DNA from: Tranquillimonas alkanivorans
Lineage (GTDB): Bacteria; Pseudomonadota; Alphaproteobacteria; Rhodobacterales; Rhodobacteraceae
Assembly: GCF_900115595.1 (NCBI RefSeq)
Contig: NZ_FOXA01000001.1
Coordinates: forward strand, 186,001-250,000
Length of the DNA stretch: 64,000 bases
Direction: 5' to 3'
Below are positions 54,639 to 60,627 of the stretch, piece after piece (position 1 is the stretch's first letter; each line of letters begins with the position of its first letter). Under the pieces are notes generated by a model that saw only the letters and a list, made by a program, of their open reading frames with translations, ran no database searches and was not told where the DNA came from. Made by a program: the position numbers and the translations under genes.

Positions 54639-54669
54639 TTGACCTTCCAGTCGCTGGAAGCCCCATATC
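54639..54669 (+). promoter_or_regulatory. CueR-type promoter of copA
   Basis: TTGACC (54639-54644) is followed by a 19-nt spacer and CATATC (54664-54669). The dyad CTTCCAGTCGCTGGAAG fills the spacer. This is the layout of the E. coli copA promoter, in which MerR-family CueR untwists an over-long spacer when Cu(I) binds. cueR itself lies downstream of copA. Confidence 0.8.
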
Positions 54670-54698
54670 GGCGGCAGCATTGGATTCGGAGGGTCGAG

Positions 54699-57203
54699 AT
54701 GACCGACAAGAACATCCGCCTGAACGTCGAGGGCATGTCCTGCGCGTCATGCGTGGGACGCGTCGACAAGGCGCTGCGGCAGGTGCCGGGGGTCCGTGAC
54801 GTTGCGGTGAACCTGGCGAGCGAGACGGCGGAGGTCCGCTTCGACGCCCCGGCCACGCCGCAGGGGCTGGCCGAGACGCTGCGCGACACGGGCTACCCCG
54901 CACGCACCCAGAAGGTGACGTTCAACGTCGAAGGCATGTCCTGCGCATCCTGCGTGGGACGCGTCGACAAGGCACTGGCCGCCGTGCCCGGCGTGCTCGA
55001 GGCGACAGTGAACCTCGCGGCCGAAACGGCGACCGTCACCTACCTCGAAGGGGCGGTCAGCGTGGCGGACCTTCAGAAGGCCTCCGCCGACATGGGCTAT
55101 CCCGCCACCGTCGCCGAAACCAGCGCACCCGAAACCGCCGCCGCCCGCAAGGACGCCGAGGCGCGGGTTCTCAAGCGCGACACCATCATCGCCGCCGGGC
55201 TCGCCCTGCCCGTCTTTCTGCTGGAGATGGGCAGCCACACGATCCCCGGCATGCACGGCCTGATCGGCAGCACGATCGGGCACGAGGCGAGCTGGCTTCT
55301 CCAGTTCGCGCTGACCACTGCCGTGCTCGCCGGCCCCGGCCGCCGGTTCTATGCCAAGGGGTTCCCCAACCTCTTCCGCGGCGCGCCCGACATGAACAGC
55401 CTCGTCGCGCTCGGCACCGCCGCCGCCTACCTGTTCTCGGTCGTCGCCACCTTCGCGCCGTCTCTGCTGCCCGAGGGCACCCGCGCGGTGTATTACGAGG
55501 CTGCGGCGGTGATCGTCGTCCTCATCCTGCTCGGCCGCTTCATGGAGGCGCGCGCCAAGGGCCGCACCGGCGCCGCGATCCAGAAGCTCCTGGGCATGCA
55601 GGCCAAGACCGCCCGCGTGGAGCGGAACGGCGAGACGGTCGAGCTGCCCATCGAGGAGATCGCGATCGGCGATGTGCTGGTGGTGCGTCCCGGTGAACGC
55701 GTGGCCGTGGACGGCGAGGTGATCGACGGCACCAGCCACGTGGACGAGAGCATGATCACGGGTGAGCCGGTGCCGGTGGCGAAGGCACAGGGCGATGCCG
55801 TGACCGGCGGCACCGTGAACGGCGCGGGCGGCTTCCGCTTCCGCGCAACCCGCGTGGGCGGCGACACCACGCTTGCCCAGATCATCCGCATGGTCGAGGA
55901 AGCGCAGGGCGCCAAGCTGCCCATCCAGGGTCTCGTGGACCGCATCACGCTGTGGTTCGTCCCCGTCGTGATGATGGTTGCACTTGCAACTATCCTCGCC
56001 TGGCTGGCCTTCGGCCCCTCCCCCGCGCTCGGGTATGCGCTGGTGGCGGGCGTCTCGGTCCTGATCATCGCCTGCCCCTGCGCCATGGGCCTCGCCACGC
56101 CGACCTCGATCATGGTCGGCACCGGGCGGGCGGCCGAGATGGGCGTGCTGTTCCGCAAGGGCGACGCCCTGCAGGAGCTGTCTCACGTCCAGGTCGTGGC
56201 GCTCGACAAGACCGGCACCTTGACCGAGGGCCGGCCCGAGCTCACCGACCTCGTCCCCGCCGAGGGCTTCGAGCGTGCCGAGGTGCTGGGCCTCGTCGCC
56301 GCCGTCGAGGATCGCTCGGAGCACCCGATCGCCGAGGCCATCGTCCGCGCCGCCCGCGCCGAACGCGCCACGCTGCCCGAGGTCGAGACGTTTACCTCGA
56401 TCACCGGGTACGGCGTGCAGGCCCGTGTGGGCGGCCGCGACGTGCTGGTCGGCGCCGACCGCCTGATGCAGCGCGACGGCATCGACACCTCGGCGCTGAG
56501 CGAGGCCGAGTCGAAGCTGGCCCGCGCCGGGCGCACCGCGCTTTTCGCTGCCATCGATGGCAAGGCCGCCGCGCTGATCGCCGTCGCCGACCCGGTGAAG
56601 CCCGCAAGCCGCGCCGCCATCGCCGCTTTGCACGACCTCGGGCTCAAGGTCGCCATGATCACCGGTGACAAGCAGGAGACGGCCGAGGCCATCGCGCGCG
56701 AGACCGGCATCGACCACGTGGTGGCCGGTGTCCTGCCCGACGGCAAGGTGGCCGCGCTGGACGAGCTGCGCGCAGACGGCGAGAAGCTCGCCTTCGTCGG
56801 CGACGGCATCAATGACGCCCCCGCGCTCGCCCATGCCGACGTGGGCATCGCCATCGGCACAGGCACCGACGTGGCGATCGAGAGCGCCGACGTGGTGCTG
56901 ATGTCGGGCGACCTGCGGGGCGTGGTCAACGCGGTCGAGGTTTCGACCCGCACCATGCGCAACATCAAGCAGAACCTGTTCTGGGCCTTCGGCTACAACA
57001 CGGCGCTGATCCCGGTGGCGGCGGGCGTGCTGTTCCCGGCGCTCGGCGTGCTGCTGTCGCCCGTGCTGGCGGCGGGCGCAATGGCGCTTTCGTCGGTCTT
57101 CGTCCTGTCCAACGCCCTGCGCCTGCGCCGCGTGCGCCCCGCCATGGACGAGAGGGAGGCGCCCCGCGCCTTCCCTGCCCCGCACCCGGCCCCGGCGGAA
57201 TGA
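54699..57203 (+). CDS. copA: Cu(+)-exporting P1B-type ATPase
   Basis: The 834-residue copper pump exports Cu(I) from the cytoplasm. Two N-terminal metal-binding domains carry GMSCASC (C15/C18 and C82/C85). The membrane CPC motif is C459-P-C461 in [13 protein letters not shown]. The phosphorylation site is D503 in DKTGTLTEG, the actuator has ITGEPVPV, and the ATP site has SEHPIAEAI; the hinge is [10 protein letters not shown] near 700. I use ATG 54699, since the frame upstream is the CueR promoter. It is followed by cueR after 10 nt. Confidence 0.97.
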
Positions 57204-57213
57204 GGAGAGAGCC

Positions 57214-57642
57214 ATGAACATCGGAGACGTCGCCAGCCTGTCGGGCCTGCCCGCCAAGACCATCCGCTACTACGAGGAGATCGGCCTGGTCTCTCCGCTG
57301 CGCGGCCCCAACGGTTACCGCCGGTTTCGCGACAGCGACCTGCACAAGCTGAACTTTCTCGGACGCGCCCGCTCGCTCGGGTTCAGCATCGAGGAGTGCC
57401 GCAATCTTCTGGCGATGTACGAGGATCAGGAGCGCGCCAGCGCCGACGTCAAGCGGCTGGCCGAGCAGCACCTGGAGAGCATCGATCGCAAGATCTCGGA
57501 ATTGCAGGACATGCGCTCGACGCTCGCCCACCTCGTGGACGCCTGCGCCGGAGATCACCGGCCAGACTGCCCGATCCTCGCCGACCTCGCGGCGGTGGAC
57601 GGGGAGGAGGACGAACGGCGCGACAGGCGGGCGACGGGCTGA
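57214..57642 (+). CDS. cueR: Cu(I)-responsive MerR-family regulator CueR
   Basis: The 142-residue regulator has an N-terminal MerR winged helix (MNIGDVASLSGLPAKTIRYYEEIGL), a dimerisation helix and the metal loop C111-A-G-D-H-R-P-D-C119, which matches the CueR CxGxxxxDC pattern for Cu(I). It should bind the operator at 54639-54669 and induce copA and itself. The last 20 residues are acidic then basic and vary in this family. It is co-transcribed with copA. Confidence 0.94.
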   Translation: MNIGDVASLSGLPAKTIRYYEEIGLVSPLRGPNGYRRFRDSDLHKLNFLGRARSLGFSIEECRNLLAMYEDQERASADVKRLAEQHLESIDRKISELQDMRSTLAHLVDACAGDHRPDCPILADLAAVDGEEDERRDRRATG

Positions 57643-57732: not shown

Positions 57733-57902
57733 TCAGACGATCTGCGGCTGGCCCGCCGCGCTCTGCCAAAAGCGCCGGACGAGCGCCGGCCCGTGCCCCC
57801 GGGCCGCGCTCACCCACCTGATCCTTCTTCGCCTGCTGTTCCCACGCCGGCGTGACCGGCACGAATGTCGCATCCCCTTGTCGCACCCGGTTCGTGAACA
57901 TA
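57733..57902 (-). pseudogene. Frameshifted small reading frame divergent from the radical SAM gene
   Basis: From ATG 57902 on the minus strand the frame reads MFTNRVRQGDATFVPVTPAW and continues to about DQV. A +1 shift at the GGTGGGTG run (57811-57818) then gives SAARGHGPALVRRFWQSAAG and a stop at 57733. Both halves have strongly GC-biased third positions, as genes here do, and join into a sensible protein of about 55 residues. The SOS-type box overlaps the start. I do not recognise the family. It may be a decayed gene, a sequencing error or a chance frame. Confidence 0.35.
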
Positions 57903-57910
57903 CCATGAAC
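57896..57910. promoter_or_regulatory. LexA/SOS-type box (GAAC-N7-GAAC)
   Basis: GAACATACCATGAAC is the reverse complement of the alphaproteobacterial LexA site GTTC-N7-GTTC. It overlaps a possible -10 (TACCAT, 57901-57906) that is 17 nt from TTGTCG (57878-57883), and covers the ATG at 57905. LexA bound here would block transcription of the radical SAM operon until DNA is damaged. Confidence 0.65.
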
Positions 57911-59149
57911 GCCATGGGACGACTCTCGCTTCAGGACAAGCTCGCGATCCTCTCGGACGCCGCGAAATACGACGCCTCCTGCGCCTCGAGCGGGACGGCC
58001 AGGCGCGACTCGCGCGACGGCAAGGGCTTGGGCTCCACCGAGGGCTCGGGCATCTGCCATGCCTACGCCCCCGACGGTCGCTGCATCAGCTTGCTGAAGA
58101 TCCTGATGACGAACTTCTGCATCTACGACTGCGCCTATTGCGTGAACCGCGTCTCGTCGAACGTCCGCCGCGCCCGCTTCTCGCCCGAAGAGGTCGTGCA
58201 CCTCACGCTCGAATTCTATCGCCGCAACTACATCGAAGGCTTGTTCCTGTCGTCCGGCATCATCCGGTCGCCCGACGCCACCATGGCCGACATGGTGCGC
58301 ATCGCGAAGACGCTGCGGGAGGAGCACGGCTTCCGCGGCTATATCCACCTAAAGACAATCCCCGACGCCGCGCCGGAGCTGCTTGAGCAGGCCGGGCTCT
58401 ACGCCGACCGCCTGTCGATCAACGTCGAGCTGCCCACCGACGCCAGCGTGAAATCCTACGCGCCCGAGAAGAACCCCGTCACGATCCGCAAGGCGATGTC
58501 GGAGGTCCGGCAGAAGCGCGAGGCGTCGCGCGACCGCTCGCATACCGGCAAGCGGCCCGCCCGCTTCGCCCCCGCGGGGCAGTCGACGCAGGTCATCGTC
58601 GGCGCGGACGGCGCGACCGATGCCACGATCCTTGGCCAGTCCACGCGGCTTTACACCGGCTTCGGGCTAAAGCGCGTCTACTACTCCGCCTTCTCGCCCA
58701 TCCCCGACGCAACGGCCAAGCTTCCCCTGATCCGCCCGCCGCTGGAGCGGGAACACCGCCTCTACCAGGCCGACTGGCTGCTGCGGTTCTACGGCTTCGC
58801 GGTCGAAGAGATCACGGCCGCCACGCCCGACGGCAACCTCGCGCTCGACATCGACCCAAAGCTCGCCTGGGCGCTCGCCAACCGCCACCTGTTCCCGGTC
58901 GACGTGAACCGGGCCGAGCGCGAGATGCTGCTGCGGGTCCCCGGCTTCGGGACGAAAACGGTGAACCGCATCCTGACGACCCGCCGCCACCGCACCCTGC
59001 GCTACGAGGACCTGTCTCGCATGGGTGCGCTGATGAAGAAGGCGCGGCCCTTCGTGACGCTCGCGGGCTGGTCGCCCGGCGCGCTGACCGACACGCCGGA
59101 CCTGCGCGCCCGCTTCGCACCGCCGCCCGAGCAGTTGTCGCTGTTCTGA
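57905..59149 (+). CDS. Putative DNA modification/repair radical SAM protein
   Basis: The 414-residue protein has the radical SAM motif C72-IYD-C76-AY-C79 (CX3CX2C), which binds a [4Fe-4S] cluster and SAM. Before it lies KYDASCASSGT, with extra cysteines (about 23-33). A C-terminal helix-hairpin-helix (LLRVPGFGTKTVNRILTTRRHR, about 340-361) is a DNA-binding motif. This matches the family described as putative DNA modification/repair radical SAM proteins, found with the next gene. Start could be ATG 57905 or 57914; the latter gives a leaderless message if the proposed promoter is real. It overlaps the next gene by 1 nt. Confidence 0.9.
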   Translation: MNAMGRLSLQDKLAILSDAAKYDASCASSGTARRDSRDGKGLGSTEGSGICHAYAPDGRCISLLKILMTNFCIYDCAYCVNRVSSNVRRARFSPEEVVHLTLEFYRRNYIEGLFLSSGIIRSPDATMADMVRIAKTLREEHGFRGYIHLKTIPDAAPELLEQAGLYADRLSINVELPTDASVKSYAPEKNPVTIRKAMSEVRQKREASRDRSHTGKRPARFAPAGQSTQVIVGADGATDATILGQSTRLYTGFGLKRVYYSAFSPIPDATAKLPLIRPPLEREHRLYQADWLLRFYGFAVEEITAATPDGNLALDIDPKLAWALANRHLFPVDVNRAEREMLLRVPGFGTKTVNRILTTRRHRTLRYEDLSRMGALMKKARPFVTLAGWSPGALTDTPDLRARFAPPPEQLSLF

Positions 59150-60627
59150 TGCGCACGGTCGCCCTGCCCGACCTCGACACCGCCCGCGCCTGGCGCGACG
59201 CCGCGCGGGCGTTGGTGGCCGAGAGCGTGCCGCCGGAAGACGTCCAGTGGACTTGCGGCGCACCGGAGCAGACTGACCTGTTCCAGGCGACCGGACAGGG
59301 ACGCGAAGCGGACGGGGCAGCCCGCACGTGCGCTCGGCGGCAGGCGTCCGTGTCCTTCAACGTTCCGAAGTCGTTCGTCGATCTCGCCGAAACGGTCGCC
59401 TGGCACAGCGACCCCGAACGCTTCGCCCGCCTTTACGCATTCCTCTGGCGCCTGCGCGACCGCCCCGTCCTGATCCACGACCGGGGCGACGCCGCGCTTG
59501 CCAAGCTGCGCGCGATGGAGAAGGAGGTGAACCGCGACAAGCACAAGATGAAGGCGTTCCTGCGCTTCCGCGAAATCGGTGCCCCCGACGCGCCCCGCCG
59601 CCGCTTCGCCGCCTGGTTCGAGCCCTCGCACAACGTCACCGAGCCGCTCGCCCCGTTCTTCGCCCGCCGCTTCGGCGACATGGACTGGCTGATCGTGACG
59701 CCCCGCCGCACCGCCTGCTTCGAAAGGGGCGAGATCAGCTTCGCCCCCGGCCAGCCCAAGCCGCTGCTTCCCGAGGACGCGACCGAGGACCTCTGGACCA
59801 CCTACTTCCGCTCGATCTTCAACCCGGCGCGCCTGAAGGTGAAGGCGATGCAGGCCGAGATGCCAAAGAAATACTGGAAGAACATGCCCGAGGCCGCGGC
59901 CATTCCCGGCCTCATCGCGCAGGCCGAATCCCGCGCCCGCGCAATGCAGGAGGCCGCGCCGACGCTGCCGCCCCTGCGCGCCGGGCGTATCCGGGAACGC
60001 CTGCACGCGCCCGGCGTTCTCCGCCCCATGGAGCTGACCTTCAACGACCTGCGCCGCAAGGCCGAGGACGAGACCCGCACCGCCCGCGACGGCTATGGCC
60101 GGGTCGTGCTGGGCGAGGGGCCGCACGACGCGCCGCTGATGGTCGTGGGCGAACAGCCCGGCGACGTCGAGGACCGCGAGGGGCGGCCCTTCGTCGGCCC
60201 CTCGGGCCAGCTCTTCGACAATGTGGCCGAGGAGGCGGGGCTCGACCGCAAGGCCGCCTACGTCACCAACGCCGTGAAGCAGTTCCGCTACGTCCAGCGC
60301 GGCAAGCGCCGCATCCACCAATCACCCGACCGCAGCGATATCGAGCACGGCCGCTGGTGGCTCGACGCCGAGATCAAGCTGGTGAAGCCGACGCTGATCC
60401 TGTCGATGGGCGGCACGGCGGCGGAAACGCTCACCGGCACCCGCAAGGGCATTCTCAAGCGCCGCGGCCATGTCGAGGAAACGGAACATGGCCCCGTCTT
60501 CCTGACCGTCCACCCTTCCTACATCCTGCGCATCCCCGACGCCGCGCGGAAGGCCAAGGAAACCGACCTCTTCCGCGCCGACCTCGCCGCCGCACAGGCG
60601 CATCTCGAGGAACTCCGCGCCGCCTGA
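59149..60627 (+). CDS. DUF4130-UdgX fusion, uracil-DNA-binding protein
   Basis: The 492-residue protein joins a DUF4130 domain (about 85-240, with VNRDKHKMKAFLRFREI and WLIVTPRRTACFERGE) to a C-terminal uracil-DNA glycosylase domain (about 320-490). The UDG part has MVVGEQPGDVEDREGRPFVGPSG (about 331-353) and the UdgX-specific loop KRRIH at 386-390; in Mycobacterium UdgX the histidine of this loop forms a covalent bond with uracil-DNA. HPSYILR is at about 455. The pair with the radical SAM gene is conserved in bacteria. Its physiological role is not settled. Confidence 0.92.
   Translation: MRTVALPDLDTARAWRDAARALVAESVPPEDVQWTCGAPEQTDLFQATGQGREADGAARTCARRQASVSFNVPKSFVDLAETVAWHSDPERFARLYAFLWRLRDRPVLIHDRGDAALAKLRAMEKEVNRDKHKMKAFLRFREIGAPDAPRRRFAAWFEPSHNVTEPLAPFFARRFGDMDWLIVTPRRTACFERGEISFAPGQPKPLLPEDATEDLWTTYFRSIFNPARLKVKAMQAEMPKKYWKNMPEAAAIPGLIAQAESRARAMQEAAPTLPPLRAGRIRERLHAPGVLRPMELTFNDLRRKAEDETRTARDGYGRVVLGEGPHDAPLMVVGEQPGDVEDREGRPFVGPSGQLFDNVAEEAGLDRKAAYVTNAVKQFRYVQRGKRRIHQSPDRSDIEHGRWWLDAEIKLVKPTLILSMGGTAAETLTGTRKGILKRRGHVEETEHGPVFLTVHPSYILRIPDAARKAKETDLFRADLAAAQAHLEELRAA

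Follow-up and report, generated by a model that had tools for sequence, protein, structure and literature searches.

An SOS-associated radical SAM–DUF4130 operon with an optional UdgX domain and a putative clamp-binding tail in Tranquillimonas alkanivorans

The operon and its genes

A two-gene operon with a LexA operator at its 5′ end was analysed in a stretch of 64,000 nucleotides (nt) from Tranquillimonas alkanivorans (Rhodobacteraceae; contig NZ_FOXA01000001.1, positions 186,001 to 250,000), hereafter called the window, whose own numbering is used unless another contig is named. Gene 1 encodes a radical S-adenosylmethionine (SAM) protein and gene 2 a fusion of DUF4130 with the uracil-capturing domain UdgX. 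Comparison with relatives points to an SOS-induced enzyme, recruited by the sliding clamp, that processes DNA lesions with DUF4130 as its partner and UdgX as an add-on, a reading that we consider somewhat probable. Papers cited by PMC number are drawn on in excerpt.

57914-59149, + strand: gene 1, putative DNA modification/repair radical SAM protein (TIGR03916), 411 residues; open reading frame (ORF) and NCBIfam, start by homology
57905, + strand: alternative start of gene 1, an ATG inside the LexA box
59149-60627, + strand: gene 2, DUF4130-UdgX fusion, 492 residues; ORF, NCBIfam and Pfam
59176-59895, + strand: TIGR03915/DUF4130 domain (gene 2 residues 10-249), the usual partner of gene 1; NCBIfam
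59902-60591, + strand: UdgX domain (gene 2 residues 252-481; TIGR03914; motif A GEQPG, motif B HPSYILR); NCBIfam, alignments and fold
60304-60318, + strand: KRRIH loop with the predicted crosslinking histidine H390; alignment, function of KRRIH after PMC10359453

Gene 1 scores 578.7 bits against TIGR03916 (rSAM_link_UDG; cut-off 343.5), and gene 2 scores 215.8 bits against TIGR03915 (cut-off 112.25) and 266.7 bits against TIGR03914 (cut-off 189.95), all three NCBIfam models being over their cut-offs. Pfam recognises DUF4130 (137.9 bits) and a uracil-DNA glycosylase (UDG) domain (104.5 bits) in gene 2. The descriptions of the NCBIfam models name no tested substrate, and the UdgX of the window further stands apart from this named system in lacking the predicted iron-sulfur (Fe-S) ligands. 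The two genes are coupled by a 1-nt overlap (TGATG at 59147-59151) and gene 2 carries KRRIH at residues 386-390, both as an earlier reading made from the DNA alone (the sequence-only reading) had stated. That reading also let the operator overlap the start of gene 1; the orthologues, however, align from the ATG at 57914 and not from the in-box ATG at 57905, which probably puts the end of the box 3 nt 5′ of the start codon. A TTG at 57878 was rejected as start codon, as it fits a -35 element and the orthologues start at 57914.

SOS control and promoter architecture

57896-57910, + strand: LexA (SOS) operator GAAC-N7-GAAC, which reads GTTC-N7-GTTC on the other strand, GAACATACCATGAAC; pattern scan and conservation
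57878-57883, + strand: predicted -35 element TTGTCG, 17 nt before the -10 element; composite pattern and orthologue columns
57901-57906, + strand: predicted -10 element TACCAT inside the LexA box, with the transcript presumably starting at or next to the ATG; column frequencies

As evidence by itself, the single box in the window was rejected, since 1.58 matches to GTTC-N7-GTTC are expected there by chance and 2 are found, the second (59362-59376) inside gene 2. Its significance comes only from its conservation in orthologues and from the same box at the organism's own lexA and recA. The whole genome (92 contigs, 4.54 Mb) holds 118 matches, whereas the reversed pattern gives 55; lexA (contig C39, 192643-193320, - strand) has boxes at 193367-193381 and 193378-193392, and recA (contig C39, 80458-81420, + strand) has one at 80349-80363. 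The region from -250 to +60 around the aligned start was scanned in 85 loci, drawn from this genome, relatives of its family and one member of the same class; a box is present in 82 of them, compared with 1 for the reversed control. As L032 and L115 are one genome, this amounts to 81 of 84 genomes. The remaining loci are L083, which has a half site, L113, with one mismatch, and L114, where the gene is broken or split and its start had been misplaced.

A broader set gives the same picture. The 195 loci parsed yielded 181 distinct gene 1 proteins, 180 of them closed, and 175 loci had the anchor motif together with 300 nt upstream. In 162 of these 175, which are chiefly alphaproteobacterial, the box lies at most 100 nt from a conserved motif near the gene 1 start. 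Eleven permuted tetramers gave 0-6 loci, spacers other than 7 likewise 0-6, and 900 nt inside the 175 genes contain 1 match in total. No box was found within 320 nt in seven loci (L083, L113, L116, L159, L167, L219 and L227); inspection by eye shows near-matches to it in L113, L159 and L167, and one to CTGT-N8-ACAG in L219. This second LexA motif appears in another class of the same phylum, for which 20 loci were fetched, taken as beta- and gammaproteobacterial, and 19 parsed: 11 of the 19 have an exact CTGT-N8-ACAG near the start. In the same scan, L236, L253 and L223 yielded no ORF.

SOS control of the operon is thereby well supported by its promoter sequences, and the earlier suggestion of a damage-inducible system agrees with this promoter scan (82/85 and 162/175 loci). 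The link is strong, given the conserved box and the second LexA motif, but not new, and it was rejected as a discovery: SOS regulation of the pair, as COG1573-COG4277, is in print in PMC8565304, which cites work on Caulobacter from 2008 and on Verrucomicrobia from 2016 and also reports other LexA motifs before COG1573-COG4277 in Bacteroidetes. As early as 2013, DUF4130 had been linked to radical SAM and uracil-DNA glycosylase proteins and described as a predicted enzyme related to mutagenesis (PMC3765255). As to SOS regulation and gene association, the earlier proposal of an undescribed pathway is not upheld as new. The published operon of Bacteroidetes, Verrucomicrobia and Caulobacter shares both gene families and LexA control with the one studied here; it differs in its Bacteroidetes LexA motifs, and the excerpt of PMC8565304 mentions neither the clamp-type tail nor the extra cysteines, the promoter layout or a UdgX devoid of Fe-S ligands. 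Known before were the operon with its family names and SOS control; described here are the clamp-type tail, the further near-invariant cysteines and histidine, the LexA box on the -10 element of a probably leaderless promoter, and the substitution of the four predicted Fe-S ligands in a UdgX that keeps its crosslinking histidine.

The position of the box suggests how repression may work. In the window, the site at 57878 is the sole match to a composite -35/box pattern, which has 0 matches in shuffles. Boxes in the GAAC orientation are found in 150 loci and in the other orientation in 18. The spacer of the 150 starts with ATA (A 0.89, T 0.92, A 0.86) and continues AT-rich. A TTG stands 18 nt 5′ of the box in 69 of the 150, 17 nt in 18 and 19 nt in 7, while each other offset between 13 and 27 nt accounts for 1-9 loci; the first ATG follows the box after 2 nt in 78 loci and after 3 nt in 27 (105/150). 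The operator and its overlap with promoter-like sequence can be read directly from the DNA, and the arrangement fits a LexA box sitting on the -10 element of a -35/-10 pair with 17-nt spacing. The mRNA would probably be leaderless, with RNA synthesis starting at or next to the A of the ATG. LexA would repress the operon by covering the -10 element of this start-proximal promoter and, because the box covers that element, LexA cleavage would free a transcript starting at or next to the ATG.

Variants of this layout were also seen. In an alphaproteobacterial group (L136-L139, L143 and L144), the box lies at about -85 rather than at the start codon. L229 and L247 have an inverted repeat, TCTCATCCAATGAGA, just 5′ of gene 1, near the place of the LexA box in relatives, which is possibly another operator. 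The viral contig L226 carries its own alphaproteobacterial LexA box.

The radical SAM protein and its partners

58118-58141, + strand: radical SAM cluster motif C69-x3-C73-x2-C76; alignment, PF04055 at 34.8 bits
57980-58084, + strand: codons of C23, C48, H49 and C57, a possible auxiliary Fe-S cluster; alignment, the cluster itself predicted
58850-58987, + strand: C-terminal helix-hairpin-helix (HhH)-like region, about residues 313-358; sub-threshold Pfam match and profile
59132-59146, + strand: C-terminal QLSLF, putative motif of the beta-sliding-clamp-binding type; conservation and base rate
60070-60351, + strand: span of gene 2 positions 308, 311, 378 and 401, which are C, C, H, C in most relatives and E, T, Q, G here; alignments

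DUF4130 adjoins the radical SAM gene in 176 of the 181 distinct loci, as a closed DUF4130-UdgX fusion in 155, as closed DUF4130 alone in 12 and as a DUF4130 ORF running off the locus in 9. The other 5 have no called partner ORF; 3 of them have too little sequence, and L105 has a tblastn match to DUF4130. With the window protein as tblastn query, all 19 other-class loci match DUF4130 and 9 match UdgX. A search of eight of the 12 genomes with DUF4130 alone brought up, in 7, only weaker UDG relatives that stay below the UdgX cut-off; the eighth, G799, encodes a UdgX above it elsewhere in its genome. Two records, from Parabacteroides and Bacteroides, have TIGR03916 and TIGR03915 only in the stretches shown, with no UdgX. 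By gene content, radical SAM protein and DUF4130 are the core unit and UdgX is an optional add-on, an order that, like the motifs described below, is evident from the sequences compared. DUF4130 has no sequence relative in the PDB at E 1. In L204 (5254-5877), L215 (5598-6215) and L221 (5275-6670), the radical SAM gene is separated from DUF4130-UdgX by other genes, the intervening pair of L204 resembling HigA/HigB by eye.

The gene 1 protein ends in QLSLF, which matches the consensus QL[SD]LF of beta-clamp-binding motifs. The last 12 residues were scanned with a wider pattern, Q[LMF]x and then either [LM][FLI] or [LF]x[LFI]. It is present in 179 of the 180 distinct gene 1 proteins, with 5.1 expected from shuffled tails; the sole miss, L219, ends in QRSLF. 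Elsewhere in gene 1 proteins the pattern occurs 10 times in 72,259 residues, and among other ORFs of at least 250 residues, spurious ones included, it is found in 1 of 616. Distant copies from Bacillota, a faecal phage record, Gemmatimonadota, Bacteroidota and Acinetobacter carry QLSIF, QLSFF, QLSLW, QLILPF, QLLLDF or QLSLGF near the C-terminus. The gene 1 protein is thus apparently carried to the beta sliding clamp, a prediction made from its tail. No paper joining a clamp-binding motif with a radical SAM protein was found, nor any by title on this pair, in a search that left most subscription journals outside. In gene 2, a short LF motif at residues 40-45 (59266-59283) reads EQTDLF in the window and frequently xDLF in relatives. 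It lies in a part of the DUF4130 protein with low model confidence, has L44 and F45 kept in at least 90% of 167 rows, and is possibly a second docking motif.

The cluster cysteines C69, C73 and C76 are kept in 205 of 206 aligned proteins, and C23, C48, H49 and C57 each in 204 of 206, which suggests that the latter four bind a second Fe-S cluster. Enzymes with N-terminal auxiliary clusters serve as the comparison for this prediction. The AlphaFold model of the gene 1 protein (predicted local distance difference test (pLDDT) 85, predicted template modelling score 0.83) has HydE and lipoyl synthase as its best fold matches, with Z 17-18 and root-mean-square deviations of 2.4-3.6 over 214-231 residues. 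These enzymes resemble gene 1 in fold, lipoyl synthase being aligned from about residue 4 and so spanning the region of the extra cysteines; identity in those fold rows is 12-17%, and the DNA-binding-type HhH, clamp-type motif and SOS control are found on the gene 1 side. Spore photoproduct lyase, SplB, to which the label "SplB-like" in PMC3765255 refers, is likewise an SOS-associated radical SAM protein thought to act on DNA. Gene 1 differs from it in that HydE and lipoyl synthase top its fold list and in having the HhH, the clamp-type tail and the DUF4130 partner; SplB is not among the 50 fold matches listed for the model, which excludes nothing.

UdgX of Mycobacterium smegmatis crosslinks through the KRRIH histidine and contains a 4Fe-4S cluster (PMC10359453). 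The domain of the window shares with it the fold (PDB 6AIL, 6IOD; Z 25-27), GEQPG, KRRIH and the HPS motif B, and differs in being fused to DUF4130 and in having E, T, Q, G in place of C, C, H, C. The loop histidine, whose loss was named beforehand as the finding that would remove the UdgX chemistry, is retained in 153 of the 155 ungapped rows (of 167). Of the 155 fusion proteins, 139 have C308, C311 and C401, and 138 of these also have H378, which aligns with the VKHF of M. smegmatis UdgX. Because of this co-conservation and the published cluster of the family, the four positions, the histidine included, are presumably the Fe-S ligands. In the window, E308, T311, Q378 and G401 replace all four predicted [4Fe-4S] ligands. 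In 15 rows, at most one of the three cysteines is present; 12 of them have R or Q at 378 and 3 keep H, and all 15 keep GEQPG, the loop histidine and the motif B histidine. In a FastTree tree built with the Fe-S columns masked, the ligand-loss label needs 5 changes. Twelve of the 15 fall in one 18-row group (support 90), and because 6 rows of that group retain the cysteines, the losses were probably repeated. The domain model has block pLDDT values of 95-98 and matches UdgX structures with Z 25-27 over 185-197 residues; family-4 UDGs match it too (Z 24-26). Judging from its sequence, the UdgX of this organism should act without an Fe-S cluster.

Proposed role and competing explanations

In the preferred reading, the HhH region would place the radical SAM protein on DNA and the C-terminal QLSLF would place it on the beta sliding clamp, so that it would act at stalled forks or gaps. 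There, together with DUF4130, the adenosyl radical and probably the second Fe-S cluster may undo a base lesion or turn it into another form. In most of the alphaproteobacterial loci compared, UdgX is fused to DUF4130; it would serve as an accessory that removes uracil or a uracil-like product from exposed single strands and stays covalently bound, so that the abasic site is protected until gap filling is complete. From the conserved features we infer clamp binding, the second cluster, DNA as the substrate and the protection of gaps by UdgX. More tentatively, and with the balance leaning slightly against it, the family could be a widespread class of radical SAM enzymes for direct DNA repair, riding the clamp during the SOS response, equipped with an auxiliary Fe-S cluster and working with DUF4130. 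In proteobacteria, it would often be joined to a suicide uracil-capturing domain that evolved to be Fe-S-free in one group of Rhodobacteraceae.

Several observations weigh against the preferred reading. C23 lies in a stretch (residues 23-45) with pLDDT below 50, and C48 and C57 are in blocks of 50 and 68. The sequence-only reading gave gene 1 a C-terminal DNA-binding HhH; the region stays below the Pfam gathering score (HHH_3, 18.7 bits versus 27), though the family profile resembles RuvA in PDB sequences (E 0.0082). The clamp-type motif is a short linear motif in a tail with pLDDT below 50 (residues 406-411), for which reason clamp binding is a prediction only, and 6 of the 19 other-class loci end in QASLF, QGSLF or QGALF, the rest having tails such as QMALW, QLSLL and QMNLF. 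As to regulation, 8 of these 19 loci have no exact CTGT-N8-ACAG, the sites of the two Gram-positive-type copies L249 (Acetoanaerobium) and L255 (a faecal phage record) are 1-2 bases off CGAAC-N4-GTTCG and carry no chance control, and the Bacteroidota copies show none of the LexA motifs tried near gene 1. Other phyla were reached through plasmid and phage records only, and few loci stand behind the LexA sites in them. The operon is present patchily, in 84 of 394 genomes of the family (G373 and G406 of the 84 were not fetched), and is therefore no core SOS gene set. Finally, the terms of the pair have no match in the main texts, as excerpted, of PMC6473078, PMC13384398, PMC12907096 and PMC4211646.

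The sequence-only reading had suggested that the radical SAM enzyme perhaps prepares or releases the adduct. Taken as one obligate pathway, this means that the enzyme prepares the lesion captured by UdgX or frees UdgX from its DNA adduct through radical chemistry. The one-base coupling of the genes, the fusion in 155 of 167 closed partner ORFs and the loop histidine, kept in 153 of the 155 rows without a gap, would suit such a pathway. It is nonetheless weakened by the 12 of 167 closed partner ORFs that are DUF4130 alone, 11 of which (all but L219) stand beside a gene 1 that keeps the clamp tail, by the 7 of 8 searched genomes of this kind without a match reaching the UdgX cut-off, and by the two Bacteroidota records with TIGR03916 and TIGR03915 only. 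Because the radical SAM protein and DUF4130 stand without UdgX, a UdgX adduct cannot be essential to their core task; adduct release, possible for fused systems, cannot be the shared role of the pair, and we regard the proposal as quite unlikely. A base-excision repair pair for nucleotides misincorporated by SOS polymerases, with UdgX as glycosylase, is how COG1573-COG4277 is read in PMC8565304, and the UDG fold agrees with this. Against it, the conserved crosslinking histidine means that UdgX should trap rather than turn over (mechanism in PMC10359453), and the radical SAM enzyme and its persistence without UdgX would be left unexplained, which makes this version very unlikely.

An enzyme that writes a thio or methyl group on a DNA base or nucleotide, policed by UdgX, would suit the NCBI family name ("putative DNA modification/repair"), the fold close to the sulfur-inserting lipoyl synthase (Z about 17) and the further N-terminal cysteines. 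SOS control through two unrelated LexA motifs, however, fits repair or tolerance better than a standing modification, and PADLOC, consulted for anti-phage defence, gave no match at E 0.01 for either protein; this alternative is unlikely. For the UdgX domain of this group, substitution of all four ligand positions in the window might mean decay, the ligands having been lost because the function was lost. Decay is of very low probability given that GEQPG and the loop and motif B histidines survive in 15 of 15 cysteine-poor rows, that 12 of them have R or Q at position 378, that 12 of the 15 sit in one 18-row tree group of which 6 rows keep the cysteines, and that the model retains the UdgX fold with block pLDDT 95-98.

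If the preferred reading of a clamp-recruited lesion-processing enzyme is right, the clamp-type tag on the core enzyme names the place and time of its action, forks and gaps during the SOS response. UdgX is in use as a tool in base editors and uracil mapping, and the literature excerpts gave no established natural role for it; no paper on UdgX together with a radical SAM protein was found, most subscription journals lying outside the search. SOS control of the pair through two different LexA motifs and the order of core and add-on narrow the question of this role, and a UdgX without predicted Fe-S ligands offers a natural experiment on the purpose of the cluster.

A phage origin was also considered. 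PHROGs gave matches only at E 0.0065 and 0.0054, and relatives occur in two viral contigs (L226 and L227) and 10 phage records (H51-H60), copies that may come from bacterial contigs wrongly called viral. The radical SAM gene is also carried by 158 plasmid records, 58 of them from Phaeobacter, so the operon resides on extrachromosomal replicons as well. The N-terminal domain of a phage family-A DNA polymerase ("phiLo", PDB 9qhs) matches the UdgX domain with Z 16.5. Directly upstream of the operon, an ORF at 54639-57642 reads by eye as a copper P-type ATPase and is followed by a CueR-type regulator (TIGR02044, over cut-off).

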